From: a virus
IMG/VR virus record: IMGVR_UViG_3300045996_001806
Coordinates: 1-60,429 of that record
Reading direction: 5' to 3' (one strand)
Length of the DNA: 60,429 nt
The translations under genes and the position numbers were made by a program. The notes under the pieces are model-generated. The model was not told where the DNA came from, did not search any database, and worked only from the letters and a program-made list of their open reading frames with translations. This document shows, in pieces, positions 4,526-55,960 of the stretch. Numbering within the stretch: the first letter of the stretch is position 1; every line of letters starts with the position of its first letter.

Positions 4526-4641
4526 TGGATCTCTCCAACCCCATGATCTTCCTCTCGGCGTGCTGCGCCGGGATTCCGCTGCTCGTCGGCTGGGTCAAGC
4601 TCAAGATCTGGGACCTGCGCCGCGAGCGCGGCCTGCCGTGA
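4525..4641 (+). CDS. single-helix membrane peptide
   Basis: A 38-residue peptide directly following the previous stop (TGATG). Residues 6-27 are hydrophobic (PMIFLSACCAGIPLLVGWV), followed by a basic cytoplasmic-type tail (KIWDLRRERG). Likely a small membrane protein; function unknown. Confidence 0.5.
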   Translation: MDLSNPMIFLSACCAGIPLLVGWVKLKIWDLRRERGLP

Positions 4642-5201
4642 TCCCGACGATCACCTGGCACCTGCCGCGCCCGCCGAAGTCGCGCTATCGCGGCGGCTTC
4701 CCGCTCCACTTCGAGGACAACCTGATCCAGCTACTCGGCTACCCCGAGCAGATCCTCCAGCCCTTCGGCGGGCGCGCCGAGCACGGGATTCGCGTCGACC
4801 TCGACCCGCTGACCGAACCCGATGTCGTGGCCGACGCGCACGAGCTCCCCTTCGCCGACGAGTCCTTCGACTGCGTGATCCTCGACCCGCCCTACTCCGA
4901 CGAGGAGGCGCTCGAGTTGTACGGGATCACCCGGCGCCTCGAGCCGGCGAAGTTCGTCGCCGAGGCCGTGCGCGTGCTTCGCCCCGGCGGCGATCTCGTC
5001 ATCTACACAGACCGCGAGCCTCGCCGCCCACCGCGCTGCAATCATCGCTGCCGGATCATGGTCACGCTTCGCCCCGGGCACTCACCGCGGGTGTGCATGG
5101 TCTTCCAGAAGCGAAAGCCCGGGATGCCGTTCTACGGGTCCGAGGCTGGCGAGGAGTTGCCGGACGCCGAGCCTTCTGTCATCCTCGGGGCCGCGCCGTA
5201 G
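4638..5201 (+). CDS. class I SAM-dependent methyltransferase with DPPY motif
   Basis: A 187-residue protein from GTG (GTGA overlap). The catalytic signature DPPY is at residues 83-86 after a hydrophobic strand (CVILDPPY), and a typical AVRVLRPGG strand-helix follows at about 117. DPPY is the motif IV of amino-methylating enzymes (N6-adenine or N4-cytosine DNA methyltransferases), but the protein is short and the target domain is small, so an RNA or nucleotide substrate is not excluded. The stop codon lies inside the downstream tRNA. Confidence 0.7.
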   Translation: MIPTITWHLPRPPKSRYRGGFPLHFEDNLIQLLGYPEQILQPFGGRAEHGIRVDLDPLTEPDVVADAHELPFADESFDCVILDPPYSDEEALELYGITRRLEPAKFVAEAVRVLRPGGDLVIYTDREPRRPPRCNHRCRIMVTLRPGHSPRVCMVFQKRKPGMPFYGSEAGEELPDAEPSVILGAAP

Positions 5202-5265
5202 AGCAGTCCGGTAGCTCGCCTGGTTCATTGCCAGGAGGTCGCGGGTTCGAATCCCGCCGGCGCTA
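5192..5265 (+). tRNA. tRNA with CAT anticodon, initiator-like
   Basis: All cloverleaf parts can be drawn: acceptor 5192-5198 with 5258-5264, D-arm GAGC/GCTC, anticodon stem CCTGG/CCAGG with loop TTCATTG, five-base variable loop, T-arm GCGGG-TTCGAAT-CCCGC, discriminator A; no encoded CCA. The anticodon is CAT. Position 1 and 72 form a C:U mismatch, and the D-stem has A11:U24; an unpaired 1:72 and A11:U24 are marks of bacterial initiator tRNA. Against this, the anticodon stem has only two of the three G:C pairs, and position 37 is T. The 5' end overlaps the stop of the methyltransferase gene. Confidence 0.85.
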
Positions 5266-5266
5266 T

Positions 5267-5365
5267 GTGATCCGCCGAATCTACATCCACATCATGCGGC
5301 ACCGTGGCAGGCATGTCCTGGCCGAGGACTGCTGGTGCAAGCCGCGCGTCGAGCGAGTGCCTTGA
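5267..5365 (+). CDS. short Cys/His peptide
   Basis: A 32-residue peptide from GTG one base after the tRNA, or about 23 residues from ATG 5294. It is basic with a RHRGRHVLAEDCWCKPRVERV core; small actinophage proteins with a similar His-rich, CWCxP ending occur, but I do not know their role. The stop is part of the TTGACA box of the next promoter. Confidence 0.45.
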   Translation: MIRRIYIHIMRHRGRHVLAEDCWCKPRVERVP

Positions 5366-5390
5366 CATCGCGCTCGAGATGCCCTAGAGT
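5362..5390 (+). promoter_or_regulatory. sigma-A-type promoter for the terminase operon
   Basis: TTGACA at 5362-5367, exactly 17 bases, then TAGAGT at 5385-5390. It starts a leader of about 125 bases before the small terminase gene. This is the only clear promoter before the morphogenesis genes. Confidence 0.7.
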
Positions 5391-5420
5391 CCCCGACCTG
5401 CTCGAGTAGGTTGATGCGAC

Positions 5421-5477
5421 GCCCTTCGGGGCCTAGCGGACGAAAGAGCAGCCGGCAGGGCCTCCTTCGGGAGGCTC
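5421..5477 (+). promoter_or_regulatory. two UUCG-loop hairpins in the terminase leader
   Basis: GCCC-TTCG-GGGC at 5421-5432 and GCCTCC-TTCG-GGAGGC at 5460-5475 follow the promoter. The second is followed by CTCTCGTCGTTTGT, a weak terminator-like tail. They may attenuate or stabilise the late transcript. There is no clear ribosome site before ATG 5523. Confidence 0.5.
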
Positions 5478-5522
5478 TCGTCGTTTGTGGGGCGCCGATT
5501 CGCACGCTACGCTCGCGCCCAC

Positions 5523-6137
5523 ATGGCCAAGTGGGACTTTCCCTCGGAGGAGCAGCAGGAGCGCTTCCTCGCCGAGATCGCCGACGGGAAGACCCGCCAG
5601 GAGGCCGCGGAGATCGTCGGCTCGAGCTCGACCAAGTTCCGCACGCTGATGAACTCGCAGAAGCCCGAGGGCCTCGCGTTCGCCGCGCGCTACCTGGAGG
5701 TGCTCGAGGAGGTCGGCAAGTCTCCGAGCCCGCTCGCCGGGCGCATCCGCGAGATGGAGGGCGTGCAACTTGCCCACCGCGCGCTCGACGAGTTCATCAT
5801 GCGCGCCCTGGACGCCGAGCGCGGCAAGGCCTCGCCCTCGGGCAACCGGATGCTCTACCAACTCTCCCTGCTCAAGGTCGAGGACTTCAAGCCGCTGCTC
5901 GAGGCCCGGACCCGGCACATCCACGAGGGTGCGGTCGGGATCTACCAGATGCCGCAGATCGACACGGCCAAGTGGTCGCTCGAGCAGCACCGCGAGTTCG
6001 TCGCGCTGCGCAAGCGTCTCTCGGAGCTCGTCGCGCTCGCTCAGCCCGACAGCGCCCAGCCGCCGCGCGAGTTGCCGGTCGGCGCTGACGACATCGAGGG
6101 CGAGGCCGTCGAGATCGAGGACGCGGCGGTCGCCTAG
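5523..6137 (+). CDS. terminase small subunit (probable)
   Basis: A 204-residue protein directly upstream of, and overlapping by one base, the large terminase. Residues about 18-45 form a helix-turn-helix (GKTRQEAAEIVGSSSTKFRT), as expected for the DNA-recognising small subunit that chooses the packaging site. The rest is helical and acidic at the end (DDIEGEAVEIED). ATG 5523 is chosen; GTG 5487 would add a basic stretch unlike the rest. Identification is by position and HTH, not by a diagnostic family motif. Confidence 0.7.
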   Translation: MAKWDFPSEEQQERFLAEIADGKTRQEAAEIVGSSSTKFRTLMNSQKPEGLAFAARYLEVLEEVGKSPSPLAGRIREMEGVQLAHRALDEFIMRALDAERGKASPSGNRMLYQLSLLKVEDFKPLLEARTRHIHEGAVGIYQMPQIDTAKWSLEQHREFVALRKRLSELVALAQPDSAQPPRELPVGADDIEGEAVEIEDAAVA

Positions 6138-7765
6138 TGCTCATCGACGCGCATGACGACGCCATCGAGGCGGACCTCGAGCGGCGCGAGCAGGGCCTGT
6201 CGCTGATCGACGAGGGCGCCGAGCTCTCGAAGAGCCTCTTTCCCTTCGTCCGCGCCTCCTGGCACGTGCTTCGCCCAGACGACGCCTTCGTCAACAACTG
6301 GCACCTGGGCGCGATGTCTGAGGTGCTCGAGGCCATCACTGACGGCGAGCTCGATCGGGTGTTCATCTGGGTGCCTCCCGGCTCGATGAAGACGATCGAG
6401 GTCGACGTCTGCTGGCCTGCCTGGGAGTGGACGAAGCGACCGAGCCTGCGCTACCTGACCTGCTCCTACGACCAGGAGATCCAGATCGAGCAGGGCATGA
6501 TCCCGTCGCGCGATCTCATCCTCTCGGACTGGTACCAGCAGCGCTGGCCGCACGTGGTCCTGAAAGAGACCCGCCGTGCCGCGTACACGAACACCCGCGG
6601 AGGCGCGCGCTGGGCCGCGGCGCCGAACGCGAAGAAGGTCACGGGCCGACACGTGCACCGGATCATCCTCGACGACCCCAACGATGCGAACTCCGCCGAG
6701 GGCGACTCCGACGCCGAGATGCAGCGGATCAACGACTGGCACGACTCGACGCTCGGCACCCGTCTACTCAAGGGCGGCGCGAAGGTCGTCATCCAGCAGC
6801 GCCTACACGAGAACGATCTCTCCGGCCACCTGCTCGAAAAGGACGAGGGCCGCTGGTACAAGCTCTGCCTCCCCGAGCGCTACGACCCCAAGCACCAGTT
6901 CGTGTGGCCCGAGGATCCCCGCACCGAGGAGGGCGAGCTTCTGTGGCCGACGCTCTTCGACTCTCAGCGCCACGAAGAGCGCGTCTCGATCATGGGTGCG
7001 CGTCGCGCGTCGGGGCAGCTTCAGCAGGAGCCCTCTCCGCGTGTCGGCGAGATCCTCAAGCGCACGGGCTGGCGCTACTACCTGCCCGAGCACCTCGAGC
7101 TGATCGAAGAGGGCGCCTTCGACGATCTGCCCGCCGAATCGCCCTTCCGCCGCCTGCGCATGATCCTGATCTCCTGGGACACCTCGCTGAAGGAGCTCAA
7201 CTCTTCCGACGACGCGGCCGGCGGGATCTGGGGAATCCTCGAAGGCGATCGCTTCCTGCTCAAGACCCGGGTCGACAAGATGAACAAGTCGTCCACGAAG
7301 ACCGCGATGCTCGAGCAGCGCGAGTGGGCGCTCGCTCGCTTCCCGCACGCAGCGCACCGCCTGCTCATCGAGAAGAAGTCGAACGGGGTCGAGATCATCG
7401 CCGACTTCCGGCGCACTGTCCCTGGTCTAGCGGTATACAACCCCGGCGACCTGGACAAGATCGCGCGCGCCAAGAACGCCGAGGGCGACTTCGATTCGGG
7501 CAACGTCTGGATCTGCGGCGCGCCCAACGGAGACGGCACCGACTACGACCCCGCGCGCACTCCAGCCTGGGCTCAGAAGGTGATCGAGCAGTGCGCGAAG
7601 TTCCCCAAGGGCCGTGAGGACGATCTCGTCGACATGACGACGCAGGCGATCAACTGGGTGCGCTTCAAGGGCCAGCGCAGGGCCACCATGCACTCGCCCG
7701 AGGAGGTCCTGCTGCCGGCGCTGGCGGGTATCCCCTCCGGAGCCGGTTCTATAGTGCGCGCGTGA
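6137..7765 (+). CDS. terL: terminase large subunit
   Basis: A 542-residue packaging motor. It has Walker A VPPGSMKT at 79-86, Walker B IILDD at 176-180, and a coupling segment VVIQQRLHENDLSGHLL near 217-233. The C-terminal RNase H-like nuclease starts with ISWDTS (Asp348), continues with IEKKSNG (Glu412) and ends with an Asp-rich segment near 508. These are the ATPase that pumps DNA into the prohead and the nuclease that cuts the concatemer. GTG start in a TAGTG junction. The family resembles the psiM2 ORF9-type terminases. Confidence 0.95.
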   Translation: MLIDAHDDAIEADLERREQGLSLIDEGAELSKSLFPFVRASWHVLRPDDAFVNNWHLGAMSEVLEAITDGELDRVFIWVPPGSMKTIEVDVCWPAWEWTKRPSLRYLTCSYDQEIQIEQGMIPSRDLILSDWYQQRWPHVVLKETRRAAYTNTRGGARWAAAPNAKKVTGRHVHRIILDDPNDANSAEGDSDAEMQRINDWHDSTLGTRLLKGGAKVVIQQRLHENDLSGHLLEKDEGRWYKLCLPERYDPKHQFVWPEDPRTEEGELLWPTLFDSQRHEERVSIMGARRASGQLQQEPSPRVGEILKRTGWRYYLPEHLELIEEGAFDDLPAESPFRRLRMILISWDTSLKELNSSDDAAGGIWGILEGDRFLLKTRVDKMNKSSTKTAMLEQREWALARFPHAAHRLLIEKKSNGVEIIADFRRTVPGLAVYNPGDLDKIARAKNAEGDFDSGNVWICGAPNGDGTDYDPARTPAWAQKVIEQCAKFPKGREDDLVDMTTQAINWVRFKGQRRATMHSPEEVLLPALAGIPSGAGSIVRA

Positions 7766-8094
7766 GTGTGGCCAACGCGGGAGTTGTCTTCATCTGCGAT
7801 GACGGTGAGGATGGCTGCGGCGCCAGCTTCGTAGCAAAGCGGCGCTACGCGGACTACATCCGCCGGGGTGTCCATAGACAGCTCTGCCGCCGCTGCGCTC
7901 GAGATGCCCTTCGCACCAAGCCGAAAGAGCCGCCGACAGAGGCCGACCTGATCTTCTGGCTCGAGCGCTTCGACGACGAGGACATCGCGCTCTTCGTCAT
8001 CGCGTTCTTCTCCGACGCCGAGTTCGACCCAGAGCCGATCGCGCTTCGCCGCGCCGAGCTCATGGGCGCGAACGTTCTCGCCGCGACAGGATGA
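7762..8094 (+). CDS. zinc-ribbon protein with acidic tail
   Basis: A 110-residue protein. Residues 12-46 hold four Cys (FICDDGEDGCG and LCRRCARD) forming a probable zinc ribbon; the C-terminal part is helical and acidic (WLERFDDEDIALFVIAFF). GTG start overlaps the terminase stop. It precedes the sugar-modification genes. Role unknown. Confidence 0.65.
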   Translation: MSVANAGVVFICDDGEDGCGASFVAKRRYADYIRRGVHRQLCRRCARDALRTKPKEPPTEADLIFWLERFDDEDIALFVIAFFSDAEFDPEPIALRRAELMGANVLAATG

Positions 8095-8786
8095 TCGCCG
8101 TCGTCATCCCGGTGCTCGGGCGCCCCGAGGCTGTTCTTCGTGTCGCCGATTCGCTCGAGCACATGACCCACGGCGCCTATCGCCTGTTCTTCCTGTGCTC
8201 GCCTGGCGACGATGCCGCGATCGAGGCTGTGGAGCGAACCGGCGCGGACTACCGCGTCGTCATGTGGCATCCGGACAAGGCCGACTTCGCGATGAAGACG
8301 AACCTCGGCTTCCGTCTCACCAACGAACCCTACGTCTTCCTTGGAGCGACGGACCTACGCTTCCACGTGAGTTGGGATCTGCACGTGCTCCTGGTCGCGC
8401 AGGAGACCGGCGCCGGCGTTATCGGCACCGACGACATGGGCAACCCGCTCGTTCGCCGTGGCAAGCATGCCACCCACGCGCTCGTTCGCCGCACGTACAT
8501 CGAAGAGTGCGGGGGCACCTTCGACGAGGAGCCGGGAGTCGTGTACGCCGAGTGCTACGACCACCAGTGCGTCGACAACGAGCTCGTCTTCGTCGCGCAG
8601 GAGCGCGGCCAGTGGGCGTTCGCGGCCAACTCGAAGGTCGAGCACCTGCACCCGCTCTGGCGCAAGGGCACGATGGATCCGGTCTACCAGAAGGCACTCG
8701 CTCGAGGTCAGGCCGACATCCGGATCTTCGCGTCGCGGCGAGCCGACTGGACAGCGAGGCGAGGGCGTACTAAAGTCGGCGCCTGA
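8091..8786 (+). CDS. GT-A fold glycosyltransferase, actinophage type
   Basis: A 231-residue protein opening with the Rossmann-like strand IAVVIPVLGRPE. It contains FLGATDLRFHVSWD (the sugar-nucleotide and metal site region), then GKHATHALVRRTYIEECGG and SKVEHLHPLWRKG, a combination I know from glycosyltransferases encoded beside head genes in actinophages. It should transfer a sugar from a nucleotide donor to a phage or host acceptor. First of five glycosyltransferase-like genes before the portal gene. ATG in an ATGA overlap. Confidence 0.8.
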   Translation: MIAVVIPVLGRPEAVLRVADSLEHMTHGAYRLFFLCSPGDDAAIEAVERTGADYRVVMWHPDKADFAMKTNLGFRLTNEPYVFLGATDLRFHVSWDLHVLLVAQETGAGVIGTDDMGNPLVRRGKHATHALVRRTYIEECGGTFDEEPGVVYAECYDHQCVDNELVFVAQERGQWAFAANSKVEHLHPLWRKGTMDPVYQKALARGQADIRIFASRRADWTARRGRTKVGA

Positions 8787-12234: not shown

Positions 12235-12824
12235 GAGTCTCTGCGGTCATCGTCACCCGCGGCGACGTCAACCTCGACCGGATCATCGAGGGGCCGTGGC
12301 CGGAGCCGTTCACCGAGATCGTCGTCTGGGACAACTCCGTCGAGACGGACATGAAGGTCTACGGGCGCTACGCCGCAATCAAGAAGGCGAGCCATCCGGT
12401 GATCTACGTCCAGGACGACGACTGCATCCTCCCGCTCCAGTCGCTGCAGACGCTCGTCGATGCCTACGAGCCGGGGCGCCTGGTCGCGAACATGCCTCGC
12501 TCGCGCTGGGAGGGCTACCCGGATTCGTCGCTCCTCGGCTGGGGTGCCATCTTCGACGCGCACCTTCCGCGCGAGTCCTTCGGGAAGCTCCCGCATCTCT
12601 TCGTCAGGGAGGACGATCGCGAGTGGTTCCACCTCACCTGTGACGTCGCCTTCTCGGCGCTGAGTCGGCGAACGGTCATCGACGTGCCGTTCGTGCACCT
12701 GCCCTGGGCTGAAGGGCCTGACCGCATGTTCACGGGCCGCCCGACACACTCCGAAGAGCGCGAGCGGATGCTCGAGCTGTGCCGGTCCGTCCGCGGCGAA
12801 GACGATGACAGGAGGGACTGGTGA
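12231..12824 (+). CDS. glycosyltransferase (GT2-like)
   Basis: A 197-residue protein starting VRVSAVIVTRGD, with IVVWDNS and the metal-binding YVQDDDCILP near 62-71, the DxD site of GT-A enzymes. Later FHLTCDVAFSALSRRTV resembles the acceptor loop. Third glycosyltransferase of the cassette; GTG in a GTGA overlap. Confidence 0.8.
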   Translation: MRVSAVIVTRGDVNLDRIIEGPWPEPFTEIVVWDNSVETDMKVYGRYAAIKKASHPVIYVQDDDCILPLQSLQTLVDAYEPGRLVANMPRSRWEGYPDSSLLGWGAIFDAHLPRESFGKLPHLFVREDDREWFHLTCDVAFSALSRRTVIDVPFVHLPWAEGPDRMFTGRPTHSEERERMLELCRSVRGEDDDRRDW

Positions 12825-13618
12825 TTCCCGAAGCAGCGACGATCGACATCCTCTACGTCGCGTTCAACCGGCTCGAGATGACGCGCGAGAGCTTCGGCGC
12901 GCTCCTGCGGAACACGCACTGGGATCACGTCGACACGCTGTACGTGGTCGACGACGCCTCGACGGACGGCACGAGCGAGTGGCTCTACGACCAGCAGATG
13001 CTGTGGAAGAGCGACAACGGCCCGCAAGCGGACTACGGGACGGACTTCATTCTCTCCGACCGCAAGCTCGGCGGACCGGTCGCTGCGATGAACTGGTACC
13101 TCGACGCGACGCGCGACCAGGAGCACCCGGACACCTTCGCGAAGATCGACAACGACTTCGTGGTCTGCCCGGGCTGGATGGATATCGCGCTGCGGCTGCA
13201 TTACCTGGGATCGAACATCGACATCATCGGCTTCGAGCCCATGAGCGGGCGACCGCAGATGGTTCGCAAGGACAACCACGCCGAGTGGCGCTTGAACGAG
13301 GCCAATCACATCGGCGGAAAGGGCCTCATCCGCAAGCGCGCCTTCGAGCGCTCGGGCTGCCGCCCGCACCCGCACGGCAAGCACGGTTACCAGGGCTTCA
13401 CCCAATGGCAGCGCAAGCACCCCGACGTCATCAAGGCCTGGATCAGCCCCGATCTGTGCTGCTTCGGCCTCGACCAGCTCCCCTTCGAGCCGTGGAACTC
13501 GCTGACGACGAGCTACGTGCAGAAGCGCTGGCAGCGCCGTTGGGGTCCATACGACTCGCTCGACACGACGTACTGGCAGTGGTGGCTCGATGAGGATGAA
13601 TCGCGGATGGCCGCGTGA
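12821..13618 (+). CDS. glycosyltransferase family 2
   Basis: A 265-residue protein with the GT2 hallmarks: DILYVAFNRLEMTRES, LYVVDDASTDGTSEWL (donor site) and FAKIDNDFVVCPGW (the metal DxD region). The C-terminal half carries a His-rich and Trp-rich acceptor part (HPHGKHGYQGF, WQWWLDED). Fourth glycosyltransferase of the cassette. Strict GTGA coupling on both sides. Confidence 0.85.
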   Translation: MIPEAATIDILYVAFNRLEMTRESFGALLRNTHWDHVDTLYVVDDASTDGTSEWLYDQQMLWKSDNGPQADYGTDFILSDRKLGGPVAAMNWYLDATRDQEHPDTFAKIDNDFVVCPGWMDIALRLHYLGSNIDIIGFEPMSGRPQMVRKDNHAEWRLNEANHIGGKGLIRKRAFERSGCRPHPHGKHGYQGFTQWQRKHPDVIKAWISPDLCCFGLDQLPFEPWNSLTTSYVQKRWQRRWGPYDSLDTTYWQWWLDEDESRMAA

Positions 13619-14397
13619 AGCTCGTCGCCTCCCTCGTCGTCCGCAATGAGCTTTCGCGTTACCTCGAGCCCTGCGTCGCCAGCCTGCTCGAATTCTGTGA
13701 CGAGATTCGCGTGCTCGACGACTGCTCGGACGATGGCACCCTGGGTTGGCTGGGAAAGAAGTGGGTGAGTGAGCGGGTCTTCGTGGCGACGACGCAAGAG
13801 CGCTCGTTCTATGTTCACGAGGGCCGGATCCGTCAACAACTGCTCGAGTGGACGCTCAAAGCGGAGCCGACACACATACTCGCGATCGACGCCGACGAGT
13901 TCGTCGCTGACGGTCGGATGCTCCGCAAGGGCCTCACGAACCAGCCGCAGCAGGAGGTCTGGACACTCGGGATGCAGGAGATCTGGAAGGCCGACGAGAA
14001 CGCGCTGTGGATCCGCTCGGACGGCGGTTGGCGCGCGCACGAGACGACGGCGCTCTACCGCGTGCCGCCCGAACTCCCGCACAGCTTCGCGATCGTCGAC
14101 CGCGCGCTCGCCTGCGGCCGCGAACCCCAGTATGTGCGGCGCCAGTACCGGCAGGCTCTTCGGACCGGGACCGAAATCCTCCACTTCGGCTGGACGAACG
14201 TGTCCGAGCGGCGAGTGCGCTACGACCGCTACGTCGTCGCCGACGGTGGTCGCTTCCACGCATCAGCCCACCTGCAGAGCATCCTCTTCGAGGATCGCCG
14301 GGTGCGGCTACGCAAGCGCGAGTGGCCCGCTGAGCTCGCCGCCTACAAGGACGTACTCCTCGAGAAAGTGAGGCACGAACGATGGCAACCCGCGTAG
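13615..14397 (+). CDS. glycosyltransferase family 2
   Basis: A 260-residue protein with LVASLVVRNELSRYL, IRVLDDCSDDGTLGWL and ILAIDADEFVADG, the ordered motifs of GT2 enzymes of the SunS/WaaE-like glycan type. The middle has RAHETTALYRVPPE and ILHFGWTNVSERRVR. Fifth glycosyltransferase of the cassette. It overlaps the next gene by 16 bases. Confidence 0.85.
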   Translation: MKLVASLVVRNELSRYLEPCVASLLEFCDEIRVLDDCSDDGTLGWLGKKWVSERVFVATTQERSFYVHEGRIRQQLLEWTLKAEPTHILAIDADEFVADGRMLRKGLTNQPQQEVWTLGMQEIWKADENALWIRSDGGWRAHETTALYRVPPELPHSFAIVDRALACGREPQYVRRQYRQALRTGTEILHFGWTNVSERRVRYDRYVVADGGRFHASAHLQSILFEDRRVRLRKREWPAELAAYKDVLLEKVRHERWQPA

Positions 14398-15077: not shown

Positions 15078-16889
15078 GTGCCGCTCTTCGGTAGGGGTAG
15101 ACGTGCCTCTAGCCGCTCTCCTGCCGACGTAGAGATCGAGGTCCTGCAGGCGGCCGCGGCTGAGGTGCGGCTGAAGGACGGGCGGGACTACCGGCGCTCG
15201 CTGCCCGCGTGGCAGCGGCAGGCGCTCGAGTTCTACGACCTGCTCGGCGAGTCGTGGTACCCGGCGCAGTTCTACGCCAGGATGCTCTCGAGGGTTCGCC
15301 TGCATCCGGCGATCGAGCTCCCCAACGGCGAGTACGAGGAGATCGAGGACGAGCAGGCCCAGACCATCCTGAAGCGCATCCAGTACCGCCGCTGGGGCGG
15401 CACTTTCGGGCAACTCCAGGCGCTCGTTGGCGACGGCTATCTCGCCGTCTACCTGGACGACGATCAGAGCGAGCGCTGGGACTACTTCTCGCCCGCCGAG
15501 CTCACCGTGCAGGAGACGACGTACCTGCGGCGCATGGGCGACGGCGTGCCGGATCGCGAATACACGAAGGTCGGCTCGATCGGCGAGAACGGTCCCGGGG
15601 AGGGCGAGATGAAGGCCTGGCGCCTGTGGAACCGTCATCCGACGCACTCGGAGATGGCGGACGCGCCGATGAAGGCAGTCCTCGATCGCCTGTCCTACCT
15701 GATGCACCTGGACAAGGCCGCGCTCGCGGCGGCGCTCTCGAGGATCGCGGGCGCGGGCCTGTTCGTGGTCGACGAGCGGATCACGATCCCGCCGAGCGAG
15801 GCAGAGGCCGCCGACGATGATCTGCACGACGACCCCTTCATGCGGCGGCTCCTGAACTACATGGTGAAGCCGATCTCCACCCCGGGCTCCGCTGCGCAGC
15901 AGGCCCCGCTGGTCGCGCGCGTCGAGCCTCCCGAGGGCATGTCCGTGAAGGACATGACGGACTGGATTCGCTTCCACGACCCCAACCAGACGACCGACTG
16001 GGACTCGAAGGTCGAGAAGACGATCCAGCGCATCGCCATGTCGCTCGACATGCCGCCGGCCGAGCTGCTCGGACTCGAGAACGCGAACCAGTGGGTCGGC
16101 TGGCTGATCGGCGAGGACAAGTGGAAGGCCCACGGCGAGCCGGTCATCATCCGGCTCTGCGACGACGTGACGCGCGGCTACTACCGACCTGCGTGTATCG
16201 CCGCCAAGGTAGAGCGAGCGGAGGAGCTCGTCGTCTGGTTCGACCCCGCGCAGGTCGTCGTTCATCCCGACCACGGCAAGGCGGCCGAAGAGGTACACGA
16301 TCGTGGCGCCCTATCGGACAAGGCCCTGCGCGCGGCCCACAACTTCTCCGAGAGCGCGGCGCCGTCGGCGGTAGAGCGAGAGGCCTGGGAGATCATCAAG
16401 ATGAAGCAGCGGGATCGCCCGCAGGATCCCTCCGAGGCTGACGCCCGAGGAAGCGGCTCGCACGTCGAGCCGGGCGCGCCCGAGAACAACGGCAATCGCA
16501 CGAACCAGCCTTCGCCGCAGGGCGACAATCAGCAGCTTCGGATTCTCGGCGCCGCCGAGATCACCTTCGACAAGCTCCGCGAGCGCGCCGGCACGTTCCT
16601 GTGGACGAAGCGGATGCAGTGCGAGGGCTGCTTCACCGGCATGGAGACGGTGCCGCGCGGCGAGCTCGCAGCGACGGCCGGCAAGAACATCGTGAGGATG
16701 CTCGACATTCATTCCGAGCTCGCGCTGATCGCCGGTGGCGCCGACCACTTCGCCGTGAAACTGCACAAGCAGTACGGCTACGACGAGGAACGCGCGCAAG
16801 TCATCGCGAAGGTCCTCGAGCGGCTGGCTGCGGAGTCGCTGTACGAGTCAGAGGCCTCGCTGCCAGAGGACTTCGTGGAGGTGCTCTAG
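15078..16889 (+). CDS. portal protein
   Basis: A 603-residue protein in the place of the portal, the dodecameric ring at the unique head vertex through which DNA enters and leaves. Portal-like features are the N-terminal DYRRSLPAWQRQALEFYDLL, the long wing and stem region with SLDMPPAELLGLENANQWVGWLI (the PPxLLG-type segment common in actinophage portals) and a disordered Pro/Asn/Gln-rich stretch at about 460-490. GTG start seven bases after the micropeptide gene. Confidence 0.85.
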   Translation: MPLFGRGRRASSRSPADVEIEVLQAAAAEVRLKDGRDYRRSLPAWQRQALEFYDLLGESWYPAQFYARMLSRVRLHPAIELPNGEYEEIEDEQAQTILKRIQYRRWGGTFGQLQALVGDGYLAVYLDDDQSERWDYFSPAELTVQETTYLRRMGDGVPDREYTKVGSIGENGPGEGEMKAWRLWNRHPTHSEMADAPMKAVLDRLSYLMHLDKAALAAALSRIAGAGLFVVDERITIPPSEAEAADDDLHDDPFMRRLLNYMVKPISTPGSAAQQAPLVARVEPPEGMSVKDMTDWIRFHDPNQTTDWDSKVEKTIQRIAMSLDMPPAELLGLENANQWVGWLIGEDKWKAHGEPVIIRLCDDVTRGYYRPACIAAKVERAEELVVWFDPAQVVVHPDHGKAAEEVHDRGALSDKALRAAHNFSESAAPSAVEREAWEIIKMKQRDRPQDPSEADARGSGSHVEPGAPENNGNRTNQPSPQGDNQQLRILGAAEITFDKLRERAGTFLWTKRMQCEGCFTGMETVPRGELAATAGKNIVRMLDIHSELALIAGGADHFAVKLHKQYGYDEERAQVIAKVLERLAAESLYESEASLPEDFVEVL

Positions 16890-18931
16890 TGCCCTGGTCT
16901 GTCGGAAAGCGCGGGAGCAAGTGGTGCGTCGTCAAGGACGACGATGGCAAGGTCGAGGGTTGTCACGATTCGAGCGCCGCTGCGATCAAGCAGCAGAGGG
17001 CGCTCTACGCGAGTGAGTCGATGGCCGCCAACGGGGATGGCCCCGATACGGCCGAGCTCGCGATGGTCGCGCTCTACCCGCGTCTGGAGGAGGCCGAAGC
17101 ACTCGCCGTCGAGGGCGGTCTCGAGGTCGACGATCTGCACGTGACGCTCATCTTCCTCGGCGAGGTGGGAACCTTCGATGAGGAGGCGCTGCCCGAGGCC
17201 GTCGGCCGAGTAGCCATGTCACACAGCCCGCTCGAGGGAGTGGTTGGCGGCACCGGCTACTTCAGCGCGAACGAGGACGGCGTGCCCGTGATCCTGCTCC
17301 CCGACGTTCCCGGTCTGAGCCGCGTGCGCGAAGACATCGTGGGCGAGTTGCGCGCGCAGGGCATCGAGTCACCCTCCGAGCACGGATTCCTTCCACACAT
17401 GACCCAGATCTACGTCGATTCCGTCGACGACGCTCCGCCTCGAGAGAACCCTCTCGGCCAGGCACTCCACTTCGATGCGGTCTCCGTCGTCATCGGCGAC
17501 CGTCGCCAGGACTACCCTCTCGGAGGTGAAGAGATGAGCACCAACACCGTCACCGTCAAGATCATCCCGGACTTCAGCGAGTGGGATGCCGCGCTCGCGC
17601 AGCGAATCGACATCCTGCCGGGGACGGCTGCGAACGCGGCCGCGGGCGCCATGTGGGAGCTCGCTGCAGGCGCCGTCGCCGCCGTCGAGGCAGGGCAGCA
17701 GTGGGAGGGCATCCTCGCCTTCGAGGCCTACCCCTCCGACGGTGATGGCGGTCTCAAGCGCTACCTGATGACGCCTCTCGGGCATCGCGAGCTGCCGCTG
17801 TCTCTCATGGCGCAGTTCGTGAACGAGGAGGGCCACAAGAAGGCGGGGATCGCCGGCCGCATCGACACGATCGAGCGCATCCCCGCCTCGGAGTTCGCCC
17901 ACGAGGGCTTCGATCTTCCAGACGACCTGCCCGAGGACGCTTTCGTGCACTTCGGGACTGGCGTCTTCGACACGGGAGAGGTTGGCGCCGAGGCTGCGCG
18001 GCTCGTCGAGGCGAAGATGCTGCGAGGCGTCTCCGTCGATCTTTCCGGGACGAAGTGGGTCCCGCTCGATGCCGAGACCTTCCAGGAGATCGAGCAGAAC
18101 GAGATGGGCATGGAGCGGATGCTGCGCGGCGTGCTCGCTGGCGGGAAGAACTCGAAGATCGCCGGCGCCACGATCGTCGCGCATCCCTCGTTCGGCCATG
18201 CGCGCGTCGATCTCGTCGCCTGCGCGTTCGCATCGGCGGAGATCCGCCTGGTGCACGAGGAGGATCTCGTCGCCTGCGCCGCTGGCCCGATCGCGCCGCC
18301 CGCGGAGTGGTTCGCGAACCCGCAGTTCAAGCAGCAGACGCCGGTCACGGTCACGGGCGACGGGCGGGTCTCCGGCCACATCGCGACCTGGGACTGCCAC
18401 ATGGGCTACGAGAACATGTGCATGACGGCCAAGCCGTCCCGCGACGGCTACGCGCGCTTCCACACGGGGACGCTCATCACCGACGACGGCACTCCGGTGA
18501 AGATCGGCCGCATCTCGGTTGCGCCGCACGCGCCGAAGCGCATGTCGCCCGAGCAGGTCATGGCGTACTACTCGGACGCGAAGAAGGTCGCCGCGTTCGT
18601 CTGCCTGTACGAGGACCGCTTCGGGATCGCGTGCGCTGGCGTGACGCGCTCGGATGCGCCGCGCGAGCTCCTGCGCGACTTCCTCGCCAATCCGCCGTCG
18701 GGCGAGTGGCGCCGCGGGGAGTTGCTCGGGATCTCGTCGGTGCCTCTGCCGGGTCTCCCGGTGGTCGCTCCCGAGGCGTACTTCGTGGCGTCCGCCGACG
18801 GCGGTGATGTCACGCCCGAGATGCTGATCCTGCCGCCAGTCGAAGCGCCGGAGCCGACGGAGGACGAGATGGTCCTCGCGGCGGCGGCTGCCGGGGGCGC
18901 GGAGACGCTCCTCGGAGTCATCGCCGGCTGA
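16889..18931 (+). CDS. 2H phosphoesterase domain fused to capsid maturation protease
   Basis: A 680-residue protein with three parts. Residues 1-42 match a small phage N-terminal module (W..V...DDGKVEGCHDS..AA..Q..ALYAS). Residues 55-205 form a 2H phosphoesterase with both catalytic H-x-T motifs: HVT at 84-86 and HMT at 170-172. From about 220 on is the prohead-protease part, with RGVSVDLSG near 380 as the likely Ser-containing active segment. An internal ATG at 17534 sits behind a perfect GGAGGTGA, so a second product containing only the protease is likely. GTG start in a TAGTG junction. Confidence 0.8.
   Translation: MPWSVGKRGSKWCVVKDDDGKVEGCHDSSAAAIKQQRALYASESMAANGDGPDTAELAMVALYPRLEEAEALAVEGGLEVDDLHVTLIFLGEVGTFDEEALPEAVGRVAMSHSPLEGVVGGTGYFSANEDGVPVILLPDVPGLSRVREDIVGELRAQGIESPSEHGFLPHMTQIYVDSVDDAPPRENPLGQALHFDAVSVVIGDRRQDYPLGGEEMSTNTVTVKIIPDFSEWDAALAQRIDILPGTAANAAAGAMWELAAGAVAAVEAGQQWEGILAFEAYPSDGDGGLKRYLMTPLGHRELPLSLMAQFVNEEGHKKAGIAGRIDTIERIPASEFAHEGFDLPDDLPEDAFVHFGTGVFDTGEVGAEAARLVEAKMLRGVSVDLSGTKWVPLDAETFQEIEQNEMGMERMLRGVLAGGKNSKIAGATIVAHPSFGHARVDLVACAFASAEIRLVHEEDLVACAAGPIAPPAEWFANPQFKQQTPVTVTGDGRVSGHIATWDCHMGYENMCMTAKPSRDGYARFHTGTLITDDGTPVKIGRISVAPHAPKRMSPEQVMAYYSDAKKVAAFVCLYEDRFGIACAGVTRSDAPRELLRDFLANPPSGEWRRGELLGISSVPLPGLPVVAPEAYFVASADGGDVTPEMLILPPVEAPEPTEDEMVLAAAAAGGAETLLGVIAG
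17522..17536 (+). promoter_or_regulatory. strong internal ribosome binding site and in-frame ATG
   Basis: GGAGGTGA at 17522-17529 precedes ATG 17534 in the same frame as the fusion gene. It lies exactly at the border between the phosphoesterase and protease domains and would allow a shorter protein of 465 residues to be made. Confidence 0.7.
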
Positions 18932-53269: not shown

Positions 53270-54895
53270 ACGTCTTCGCCTGCGCTAGAGCCGTATAACC
53301 TCGAGGCCGAAGAGACCGTACTCGGTGCGTGTCTCCTGTCGGGCTCGGCGATCGACGTCGCGAGCGAGTACCTCGAGCCATCGACGTTCTATCGCGATAC
53401 GCACGGCGCGATCTACGGCGCCCTGCAGGCGCTTCGCTCTCGCGAGCAACCCACAGAGCCGCTTGCCGTCGCGGCAGAACTAGAACGTCAGGGCAAGCTC
53501 GCGGCGGTCGGCGGAAAGGCTCGCCTGGCCGAGCTCGCGGCGCTGGTGCCGGCGACGGGCAACGTCGGCCACTACGCAGCGATGGTGCTCGAGATCCATC
53601 GCTCGCGGGTCCTCTGCCGTGCAGCCGTTGCGATCCAGGCTGCAGCACAGAACGGCGGCGTCTCGCTGCATCCCGAGCTGCTCGACGAGATGCAGGAGGC
53701 GATGGACGCGGCCCGCGCGCTTCCCGGCGAGCCTTCGCTCCCGCCGGGTCCGATCTTCATCACCGCTCACGAGTTCGCGGCGTCGCACTTCGAGCCGCCG
53801 GAGCCGTTGCTCGGGACCACCGAGACGGCGATCCTGGCGGCGGGAAGCTTGAACCTCCTCGCGGGGCGTCCGGGCACCGGCAAGACGACCACCGTGCTCG
53901 ACCTCTGCTGCCATCTCGCTGCAGGTCTTCCCTGGCCTCCAGTCGACCCGGCCAACACGAAAGCTCCGCAGTCGTGGCCGTGCCCCCGCCCCCTTCGCTG
54001 CGCGATCATCGTGAACGAGGGTCCGCAGGAGATGTTCCGGGCCAAGGTGCAGGACAAGCTCACGAAGTTCCCGCACTCGATTGAGGACGCCGGCGGCGGA
54101 CTCTTTATCCAGTCGCTGAACTGGGGCGCGTTCTCTTTCCGCGACCGCTCGATCTTCGAACGCCTGCGCGACGAGCTCGACAGCCGCGACGTTGACCTTG
54201 TGGTCGGAGACCCGCTCGGCTCGCTCGGCCTCGAGGGCGTCGGCTCTCCAGCCGAGACGCTCGACTTCGTGAACCTGCTGAAGCCCCTCGGACTCGGCAC
54301 GCGCAGGGCCTTCCTTTTCCTCCACCACTTCCGCGAGCGAGTCGAGAAGGGAGAGGACGAGGTAGCGCGCCTGTCGGGAGCCTGGGGCGGCCATCTCGAC
54401 ACGCTCATCACGCTCGCCGCCGGGTCGCAGACCGACCAATCGCGCCTCGCCTATCCGAAGTTGCGCTGGAACACCCGAGAAAATCCAAGTCCCATCGTCC
54501 TCGCGCGCATCCGGAACACCCGCAGCGTCGAGGTCATCGGCGAGGAGTCCGACCACACCCTGCTCGAGCCTCAGATCCACGCCTACCTCGAGCGCTCGCG
54601 AGAGACCAAGGCGGATACCCAAGGCTGGCAGACCACGGACCAGATCCGGGCGGGCATCGAGGCTCGCCGCGTGGCCGTGCAGAAGGCCCTCGAGGGCGCT
54701 CCGCATCTCTTCGTCATGGTCACAGGCGACGAGGCCAAGAACCTCGGCGCGAAGTCGAAGGCCGCAAAGCTCTGGGGCCTGCGCGAATGGACAGAGGGCG
54801 AAGACTGGCGCGCCGAGCTCGAGGAGGATTCCTTCGGCAAGGCCGACGAGCAGGCCCGCTTCACGGATCGCGGCTCAGACGACATCCCGTTCTAG
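53270..54895 (+). CDS. DnaB-like replicative helicase with apparent ACG start and SSB-type tip
   Basis: From ACG the protein has 541 residues. It begins SSPALEPYNLEAEETVLGAC, a typical DnaB N-terminal domain with YGALQALRSRE and VGGKARLAELAALVP. The RecA-like motor follows with Walker A GRPGTGKTT near 199 and VGDPLG as Walker B region. The last residues are SDDIPF. The frame is closed by TAG at 53258-53260, and no ATG, GTG or TTG occurs before GTG 53546, which would remove the whole N-terminal domain. ACG 53270 has AGGG about six bases upstream. Confidence 0.75.
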   Translation, partial: TSSPALEPYNLEAEETVLGACLLSGSAIDVASEYLEPSTFYRDTHGAIYGALQALRSREQPTEPLAVAAELERQGKLAAVGGKARLAELAALVPATGNVGHYAAMVLEIHRSRVLCRAAVAIQAAAQNGGVSLHPELLDEMQEAMDAARALPGEPSLPPGPIFITAHEFAASHFEPPEPLLGTTETAILAAGSLNLLAGRPGTGKTTTVLDLCCHLAAGLPWPPVDPANTKAPQSWPCPRPLRCAIIVNEGPQEMFRAKVQDKLTKFPHSIEDAGGGLFIQSLNWGAFSFRDRSIFERLRDELDSRDVDLVVGDPLGSLGLEGVGSPAETLDFVNLLKPLGLGTRRAFLFLHHFRERVEKGEDEVARLSGAWGGHLDTLITLAAGSQTDQSRLAYPKLRWNTRENPSPIVLARIRNTRSVEVIGEESDHTLLEPQIHAYLERSRETKADTQGWQTTDQIRAGIEARRVAVQKALEGAPHLFVMVTGDEAKNLGAKSKAAKLWGLREWTEGEDWRAELEEDSFGKADEQARFTDRGSDDIPF

Positions 54896-55960
54896 CAATC
54901 TGCGGCCGATCCACTCAGCCACGTTGACGGTCACGGCGTCGCCGATCGCGGCGTAGCGCTTCGTGTCGGCGCCGGGAAGGGTCCAGTTGTCGGGGAGTCC
55001 CTGCAGCCGCTCGCACTCGATGGGCATGAGCCGGCGCACGGTCATCCCCTGGCGAACGGTCGAGTAGCCCTGCCCAGGCTTCCCGCCGCCCGCCGTCAGT
55101 TGGTGAGCATACGGCGTCTCGAGCACCTCGGCGCGCTGGTTCTCGGACACGGCGTAGGCGCCGATCACGTCAACGTCAGTTGTCCGGAATCCTCCGTCGG
55201 CGAGGGACCCGAAGGTTCCGGCGACCCGGCTAGAGAGATCAGGGCGACCTTCAAGAACGGCGGCAACGTCTTCCCCCTCTTCGTCGCTCGCGCCAGAATG
55301 CCGGCTGCAGCTCGCGTTGAGAGCAAGTACGTCTCCGGCACGTTCTGCGGCGGCTCGAGGATCTCCGTCAGCATGGGCTCCGAGGATGAACACCCGTCTT
55401 CGTCGCTGCGGCACTCCGAAGAAGCGGCTGTTGACAGTCCGCCAAGCCATGCCATACCCGAGGTCGGCCAGCGTGCCAAGGACTGCTCCGAAGTCCCGAC
55501 CGCCATGTGAAGAGAAGAGACCCGGAACGTTCTCGACAAGGACCCATCGAGGTCGAACAGACTCGGCGACTCGAGCGAACTCGAAGAAGAGTCCGGACTC
55601 GTCTCCGGCGAGGCCTGCGCGCTTTCCGGCGACGGAGACGTCGGTGCAGGGGAAGCCTCCGGCGAGGAGTCCGGGGAGGTCTCCTCGATCGCCACGAGGA
55701 GCTGCGGGTTCCCCGGGTAGCGCAGGTCCATCGGCGTCAGCGTCGGAGCCACCGGGGTCTCCGTCCAGATGTCCGCCTCGCGGCTCGAGCCCCTGTGCGA
55801 CTTCTCGAACGTCCGCGTAGACAATGCATCCGGGGAAGCGCTCGCGGAGGATGCTTCGTCTCCATCCGTCTTTCTCGCAGAGGAGGGTGTGGGTGAGTCC
55901 GGCTCGCCGGAGGCCCTCGTCGAGTCCCCCGATCCCGGAGAAGAGTGACCAGACATTCAC
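54875..55960 (-). CDS. DNA (cytosine-5) methyltransferase
   Basis: A 361-residue enzyme. WSLFSGIGGLDEGLRRA is motif I, GFPCTDVSVAGKRAGL motif IV with the catalytic Cys105, and LVENVPGLFSS motif VI (Glu143). QRRRRVFILGA is motif VIII, and AIGDAVTVNVAEWIG motif X. It methylates C5 of cytosine in double-stranded DNA, protecting phage DNA from restriction. A Gly/Pro/Asp-rich insert of about 40 residues lies before motif IV. Its end overlaps the helicase end by 21 bases in convergent orientation. Confidence 0.9.
   Translation of the reverse strand: MNVWSLFSGIGGLDEGLRRAGLTHTLLCEKDGWRRSILRERFPGCIVYADVREVAQGLEPRGGHLDGDPGGSDADADGPALPGEPAAPRGDRGDLPGLLAGGFPCTDVSVAGKRAGLAGDESGLFFEFARVAESVRPRWVLVENVPGLFSSHGGRDFGAVLGTLADLGYGMAWRTVNSRFFGVPQRRRRVFILGAHADGDPRAAAERAGDVLALNASCSRHSGASDEEGEDVAAVLEGRPDLSSRVAGTFGSLADGGFRTTDVDVIGAYAVSENQRAEVLETPYAHQLTAGGGKPGQGYSTVRQGMTVRRLMPIECERLQGLPDNWTLPGADTKRYAAIGDAVTVNVAEWIGRRLLERDVV

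Follow-up and report, generated by a model that had tools for sequence, protein, structure and literature searches.

An initiator-class tRNA with an altered anticodon loop in a phage genome, and its place among virus-associated position 37/38 variants

The purpose of phage tRNAs is a long-standing question, and the locus described here raises it for an initiator. Internal-codon usage cannot explain an initiator tRNA, and a lone phage copy therefore points to initiation control or to escape from a defence. The window, that is, the whole stretch of DNA that was analysed, is a linear virus record of 60,429 bases from IMG/VR with no host named, which encodes portal, major head, tape-measure, terminase large subunit and RecT-like genes. 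ARAGORN, run on the whole 60,429-nt record, calls a tRNA-Met(cat) at exactly 5192-5265 (+), and this is the sole tRNA that it finds there. What kind of tRNA is it, and why would a phage keep it? The features that define it are as follows.

5192-5265, + strand: tRNA gene of the initiator class, anticodon CAU, with C1·U72 and A11:U24 (sequence reading, ARAGORN, Rfam, covariance models, folding)
5224-5230, + strand: anticodon loop TTCATTG (T32 at 5224, T37 at 5229, G38 at 5230)
5226-5228, + strand: anticodon CAT (ARAGORN), starting at tRNA base 35

The gene matches RF00005 of Rfam with 56.6 bits (E=1.4e-9), and its cloverleaf folds with a minimum free energy of -34.9 kcal/mol (z=-2.5). The acceptor stem reads CGCGCCG/CGGCGCT, with C1·U72 unpaired, and the D stem GAGC/GCTC, with A11:U24; the anticodon stem CCUGG/CCAGG contains U29:A41, G30:C40 and G31:C39 and carries the loop UUCAUUG (U32 U33 C34 A35 U36 U37 G38). 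The variable loop is AGGUC, the T arm GCGGG-UUCGAAU-CCCGC and the discriminator position A73, after which CCA is not templated, the next bases being TGT. The structural details given by the sequence-only reading (cloverleaf, CAT, C1:U72, A11:U24 and T37) all proved correct when the sequence was read again; it was silent on U32, on G38, on the absent CCA and on an overlap of 10 nt with a methyltransferase ORF.

The assignment to the initiator class, also made in that reading, was checked by comparing initiator, elongator Met and Ile2 isotypes, not with tRNAscan-SE but with our own covariance models, built from cellular CAU tRNAs (10 initiators, 7 Ile2 and 12 elongator Met), and it held. The phage tRNA scores 79.3 bits with the initiator model, 66.4 with elongator Met and 59.7 with Ile2, so that neither competing model scores higher and the initiator model leads by 12.9 and 19.6 bits, respectively. 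As controls, E. coli metZWV, metU and ileX each scored best with their own model, some E. coli sequences being part of the training sets. The named determinants of formylation, the 1:72 mismatch, 2:71, 3:70 and 11:24 (PMC11231383), are all present, as C1·U72, G2:C71, C3:G70 and A11:U24, and a C:U at 1:72 is also found in other viral initiators. The initiator anticodon stem is represented by G30:C40 and G31:C39, and G29:C41 is absent. The earlier remark that only two of the three G:C pairs are present is thus true, the third being U29:A41, but this is not unusual, as cellular initiators often lack G29:C41: A29:U41 is common among the Pseudomonadota initiators listed, many of which have the stem UCAGG/CCUGA, and it is the commonest form at 29:41 in viral initiators. 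Since many cellular initiators have A29:U41, G29:C41 does not define the class, and we rejected the missing pair as a special feature.

Compared with E. coli metZWV tRNAfMet, the phage tRNA has the same CAU, 1:72 mismatch, G2:C71, C3:G70 and A11:U24, as well as the same whole D stem, G30:C40, G31:C39, AGGUC and A73. It differs in having C1·U72 instead of C1·A72, in U29:A41, in the loop UUCAUUG instead of CUCAUAA, and in that CCA is not templated. An elongator tRNA-Met, or an Ile2 tRNA after lysidine modification of C34, could perceivably be mistaken for an initiator, given that the anticodon CAU is common to all three classes and that U32 and the off-consensus 37/38 bases are not typical of initiators. 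However, both models score well below the initiator one, the 1:72 mismatch and A11:U24 speak against an elongator, and U37/G38 are unlike the A37/A38 of the collected Ile2 and elongator sets, for which the search pattern had TCATAA fixed. Both identities are rejected by the model scores and we consider such a mix-up very improbable; the gene is supported, by its sequence, as encoding a tRNA of the initiator class.

The true oddity of this tRNA is its loop, in which UUCAUUG, with U32, U37 and G38, replaces CUCAUAA. The latter, with its A37, is near-universal in cells, where U37 is so rare that we class the phage tRNA as an initiator variant. A pattern search met U37 initiators in 3 of 84,980 cellular genomes; two of these three matches fall on contigs that resemble prophages, having terminase and head genes, and the third lies on a contig with adjoining type IV pilus-type genes. 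This third tRNA (L146:959-1035) comes from an Agitococcus MAG that has a normal initiator copy on another contig, and it possibly sits on a conjugative element. Of the initiators listed as matches in 200 Pseudomonadota genomes, two had a loop other than CTCATAA, both in genomes that also carry a CTCATAA copy, and A37 with a base other than A38 was seen in 1 of 399 Pseudomonadota genomes, as an extra copy beside the CTCATAA one. In IMG/VR, initiators with both U32 and U37 occur on 10 contigs, those without A37 on 22 and those with A37 but without A38 on 61, and positions 37/38 were changed in 8 of the 121 matches of our first viral sample. This comparison, which is one of pattern-fitting initiators and covers phyla other than Pseudomonadota in the 84,980-genome U37 count only, shows the position 37/38 variants (22 + 61 contigs) to be a strongly virus-associated set, to which the tRNA of this record belongs. 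The set is a concrete and testable one, offering the same body with different loops, and it bears on how much departure from A37 an initiator tolerates before it ceases to work.

The presence of an initiator tRNA alone is not news, because initiator-type tRNAs are widespread in phages. The initiator pattern of D arm, anticodon and variable loop is found on at least 120 IMG/VR contigs, and a BLAST comparison adds hundreds of reference phages with tRNAs of this type, mostly labelled 'tRNA-Met' or unannotated. Many of the IMG/VR matches stand at the end of a contig, where they probably represent host tRNA genes that serve as attachment sites; internal matches abound as well. The same tRNA class occurs in mycobacteriophages (Koguma), Caulobacter CcrSC, Mesyanzhinovviridae Donnerlittchen and Sinorhizobium phiLM21. 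In the small phages that were read it is usually alone and near terminase genes, as in this record, whereas in large phages it is found inside multi-tRNA clusters. The other sampled viral copies mostly have CTCATAA, in contrast to the U37 and G38 seen here; that normal loop is present in 84 of 144 distinct viral initiator sequences, a set enriched for variants, so the loop alteration is not universal. In full-text literature searches, no work treating phage initiator tRNAs as a class came up. The phage initiator-type tRNA is therefore best described as a known kind, little discussed, of which the loop change is the unusual part.

Do the loop-altered initiators look like working tRNAs? In 30 distinct sequences (29 viral ones and that of the bacterial contig L146), 96% of the stem-pair cells are paired and 128 show a double change, against a shuffled mean of 30 and 5-22 in slid controls; the set had been limited beforehand to sequences whose acceptor and T stems were mostly paired, a choice that inflates the percentage of paired cells without adding to the number of double changes. 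All stem pairs except 1:72 are always formed, conservation of the D arm, G30/G31 and the variable loop being partly by construction as the search pattern fixed them; the acceptor stem, the T stem and positions 27-29 were free in the pattern, and it is there that covariation is seen. Position 1:72, on the other hand, is unpaired in 24 of the 30. Taken with the strong stem covariation, this makes the loop-altered set look functional rather than decayed, and the substitution pattern shows stem pairing in this class to be under selection.

The closest relative of the phage tRNA (L392:1526-1599, - strand, on IMG/VR contig 3300037478_000109) is consistent with this. It is 89% identical over 74 nt and differs in 8 bases, which comprise two compensatory stem changes (29:41, UA/AU, and 49:65, GC/AU), loop positions 37 and 38, a single D-loop base and a single T-loop base. 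Like the tRNA studied here, it is lone, has the acceptor stem CGCGCCG/CGGCGCT with C1·U72 and lacks CCA, whereas its loop is UUCAUAC (A37, C38) instead of UUCAUUG. It lies immediately before a terminase small subunit gene (phrog_1482) that is unrelated in sequence to the probable TerS of this record.

These observations bear on the suggestion that the gene has lost its function and is the decaying remnant of an initiator gene from a host, such as a former attachment site. In favour of such a relic, CCA is not encoded, the loop departs from the consensus, and the many contig-end matches are what prophages inserted into host tRNA genes would produce. However, the gene is complete and its stems are intact, and the changes relative to the closest relative are compensatory. 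It is also internal, 5 kb into the record, and no integrase was found among the ORFs scanned in that record, on which grounds the attachment-site version is rejected. A relic of any kind is, in our view, improbable.

We therefore favour, with a probability of about one half, a functional initiator tRNA that adds to or replaces the host pool and whose loop was most likely selected against anticodon-loop nucleases. During infection the phage genome would be transcribed to give this tRNA, the CCA-adding enzyme of the host would complete it, and host MetRS and Fmt would charge and formylate it. The tRNA would then enter the P site and initiate translation, thus supplementing or replacing the host's initiators; that it could supply initiation, as proposed before, is supported as an inference. 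With U32/U37/G38, the phage initiator would stay usable while VapC-type nucleases attack the CUCAUAA initiator of the host. In enteric bacteria, VapC cleaves tRNAfMet at the A38/C39 junction (PMC4105405), and bases 37 and 38, both changed here, lie at or next to this cut site. For other phage tRNAs, loop mutation has been proposed as a means of VapC evasion (PMC10264068), and there too loop bases at or near the cut site are changed while the anticodon is kept; the main cases of that study (van den Berg et al. 2023) are, however, mycobacteriophage tRNAs facing known host nucleases, as opposed to the initiator considered here. A point against the escape reading is that enteric-host phages as a rule do not encode tRNA-fMet if it is a VapC target (PMC10264068); loop-altered initiators would be the missing case beside this avoidance. 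Such a loop may come at a price, since A37 is found in practically all cellular initiators and U37 may thus weaken decoding.

The sequence-only reading had instead raised relaxed start-codon choice, for which we find no support: the anticodon is a plain CAU, and the start calls (ATG 27, GTG 14, TTG 3, from a crude Shine-Dalgarno heuristic) give no sign of altered initiation. Escape from loop-cutting nucleases would explain the loop more simply. Alternatively, a functional initiator might only raise the supply of fMet-tRNA, its loop drifting because constraint is weak and having nothing to do with nucleases. The firm initiator class indicated by the model scores suits this, most phage initiators have a normal loop, which means that supply alone may suffice as a reason, and a single copy beside the packaging module would suit late-protein demand; the variation at 37/38 could likewise be drift under relaxed constraint. 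Against this, tight covariation of the stems goes together with variability at 37/38, positions that hardly ever vary in cellular copies. Plain drift is further disfavoured because other unpaired sites would be expected to change equally. We regard supply without nuclease escape as possible, if rather unlikely. Returning to nuclease escape, its extension to many phage lineages, each with a nuclease-proof initiator in which 37/38 are rewritten and the body is conserved, often at the packaging module, and with initiation continuing on phage tRNA through a host shutdown brought about by cutting of tRNAfMet, is put forward only tentatively.

The position of the gene raises a further question, for which the following neighbours are needed.

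4560-5201, + strand: DNA methyltransferase-like ORF (phrog_11619, 3.7e-13; PF08241, 1.7e-8)
5362-5390, + strand: promoter-like TTGACA-17-TAGAGT between the tRNA and TerS (1 found against 0.1 expected)
5457-5478, + strand: terminator-like hairpin after the promoter-like site (2 overlapping found against 0.5 expected)
5523-6137, + strand: probable terminase small subunit (TerS), named by its position before TerL, with no profile match
6137-7765, + strand: terminase large subunit (TerL; phrog_38, 2.1e-58)

Lone initiator-type tRNAs adjoin terminase genes in this record, in Clavibacter CN1A, Micromonospora pMLP1 and Sinorhizobium phiLM21, and likewise in Rhizobium RHph_TM3_3_3 and the Mesyanzhinovviridae Elanor, PaMx74, DoCa5 and Donnerlittchen; in a family of Bacteroidota prophages an initiator tRNA with a U37 loop stands beside terminase genes. 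A counter-example is ct7L0027, where the initiator tRNA precedes the major capsid gene. With broad TerL seeds in IMG/VR, TerL lies within 2.5 kb of 14 of 56 lone initiator loci as compared with 2 of 43 elongator-tRNA loci (p=0.005), and of 11 of 53 once near-duplicates are removed (p=0.02). PHROGs/Pfam applied to the same locus sets find about 4 in the elongator control and hence a smaller gap, and in the loop-altered set alone the figure is 8 of 55, which is not significant (p=0.10). The association is suggestive, a lead and not a result. The stretches examined around ten TerL relatives (L127-L136, 29-42% identity) contain no tRNA, so this TerL lineage does not always come with the tRNA gene. 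In Elanor (L122:4041-4116), PaMx74 (L123:3359-3434) and DoCa5 (L124:1656-1731), the initiator-type tRNAs directly after terL are unannotated; a passage in PMC11236537, citing Turner 2023, describes Mesyanzhinovviridae members as being without tRNAs.

Recurrence beside terminase genes in unrelated phages would be expected if the tRNA-shaped RNA acted mainly in cis or in packaging, be it as an RNase P point at an early/late operon border or as a terminase RNA element. The stop codon of the methyltransferase ORF (TAG, 5199-5201) coincides with tRNA nt 8-10, and through this 10-nt overlap tRNA processing would cut the methyltransferase mRNA, as such a role would have it. Yet the terminase side and the orientation vary between lineages, the excess relative to elongator tRNAs is modest and changes with the detection method, and a role in cis would not need initiator identity. 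We hold it to be very unlikely.

RNase P processing of the tRNA would strip the methyltransferase mRNA of its stop codon. As the tRNA lies upstream of the promoter-like site, its transcription probably takes place together with that of the methyltransferase side of the locus. Ahead of TerS, the region 5362-5490 (+) holds the promoter-like site followed by GC-rich hairpins and the terminator-like stem, and is possibly a candidate small RNA of ~90 nt; the region preceding TerL in the relative L127 showed no such promoter- or terminator-like sites. Around the packaging module there are glycosyltransferase-like ORFs at 8091-8786, 12821-13618 and 13615-14397 (all +), and at 54875-55960 (-) a C5 cytosine DNA methyltransferase (PF00145, 4.7e-54), the second methyltransferase of this phage. 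Finally, the product of 16601-18931 (+) contains, at about residues 137-308, the HxT motifs HVT and HMT ahead of a head/portal/protease-like domain. Two HxT motifs are typical of 2H phosphoesterases (LigT type). The same product matches an RNA ligase in PHROGs (1.2e-19), and its best PDB match is an RNA 2',3'-cyclic phosphodiesterase (E 0.035).
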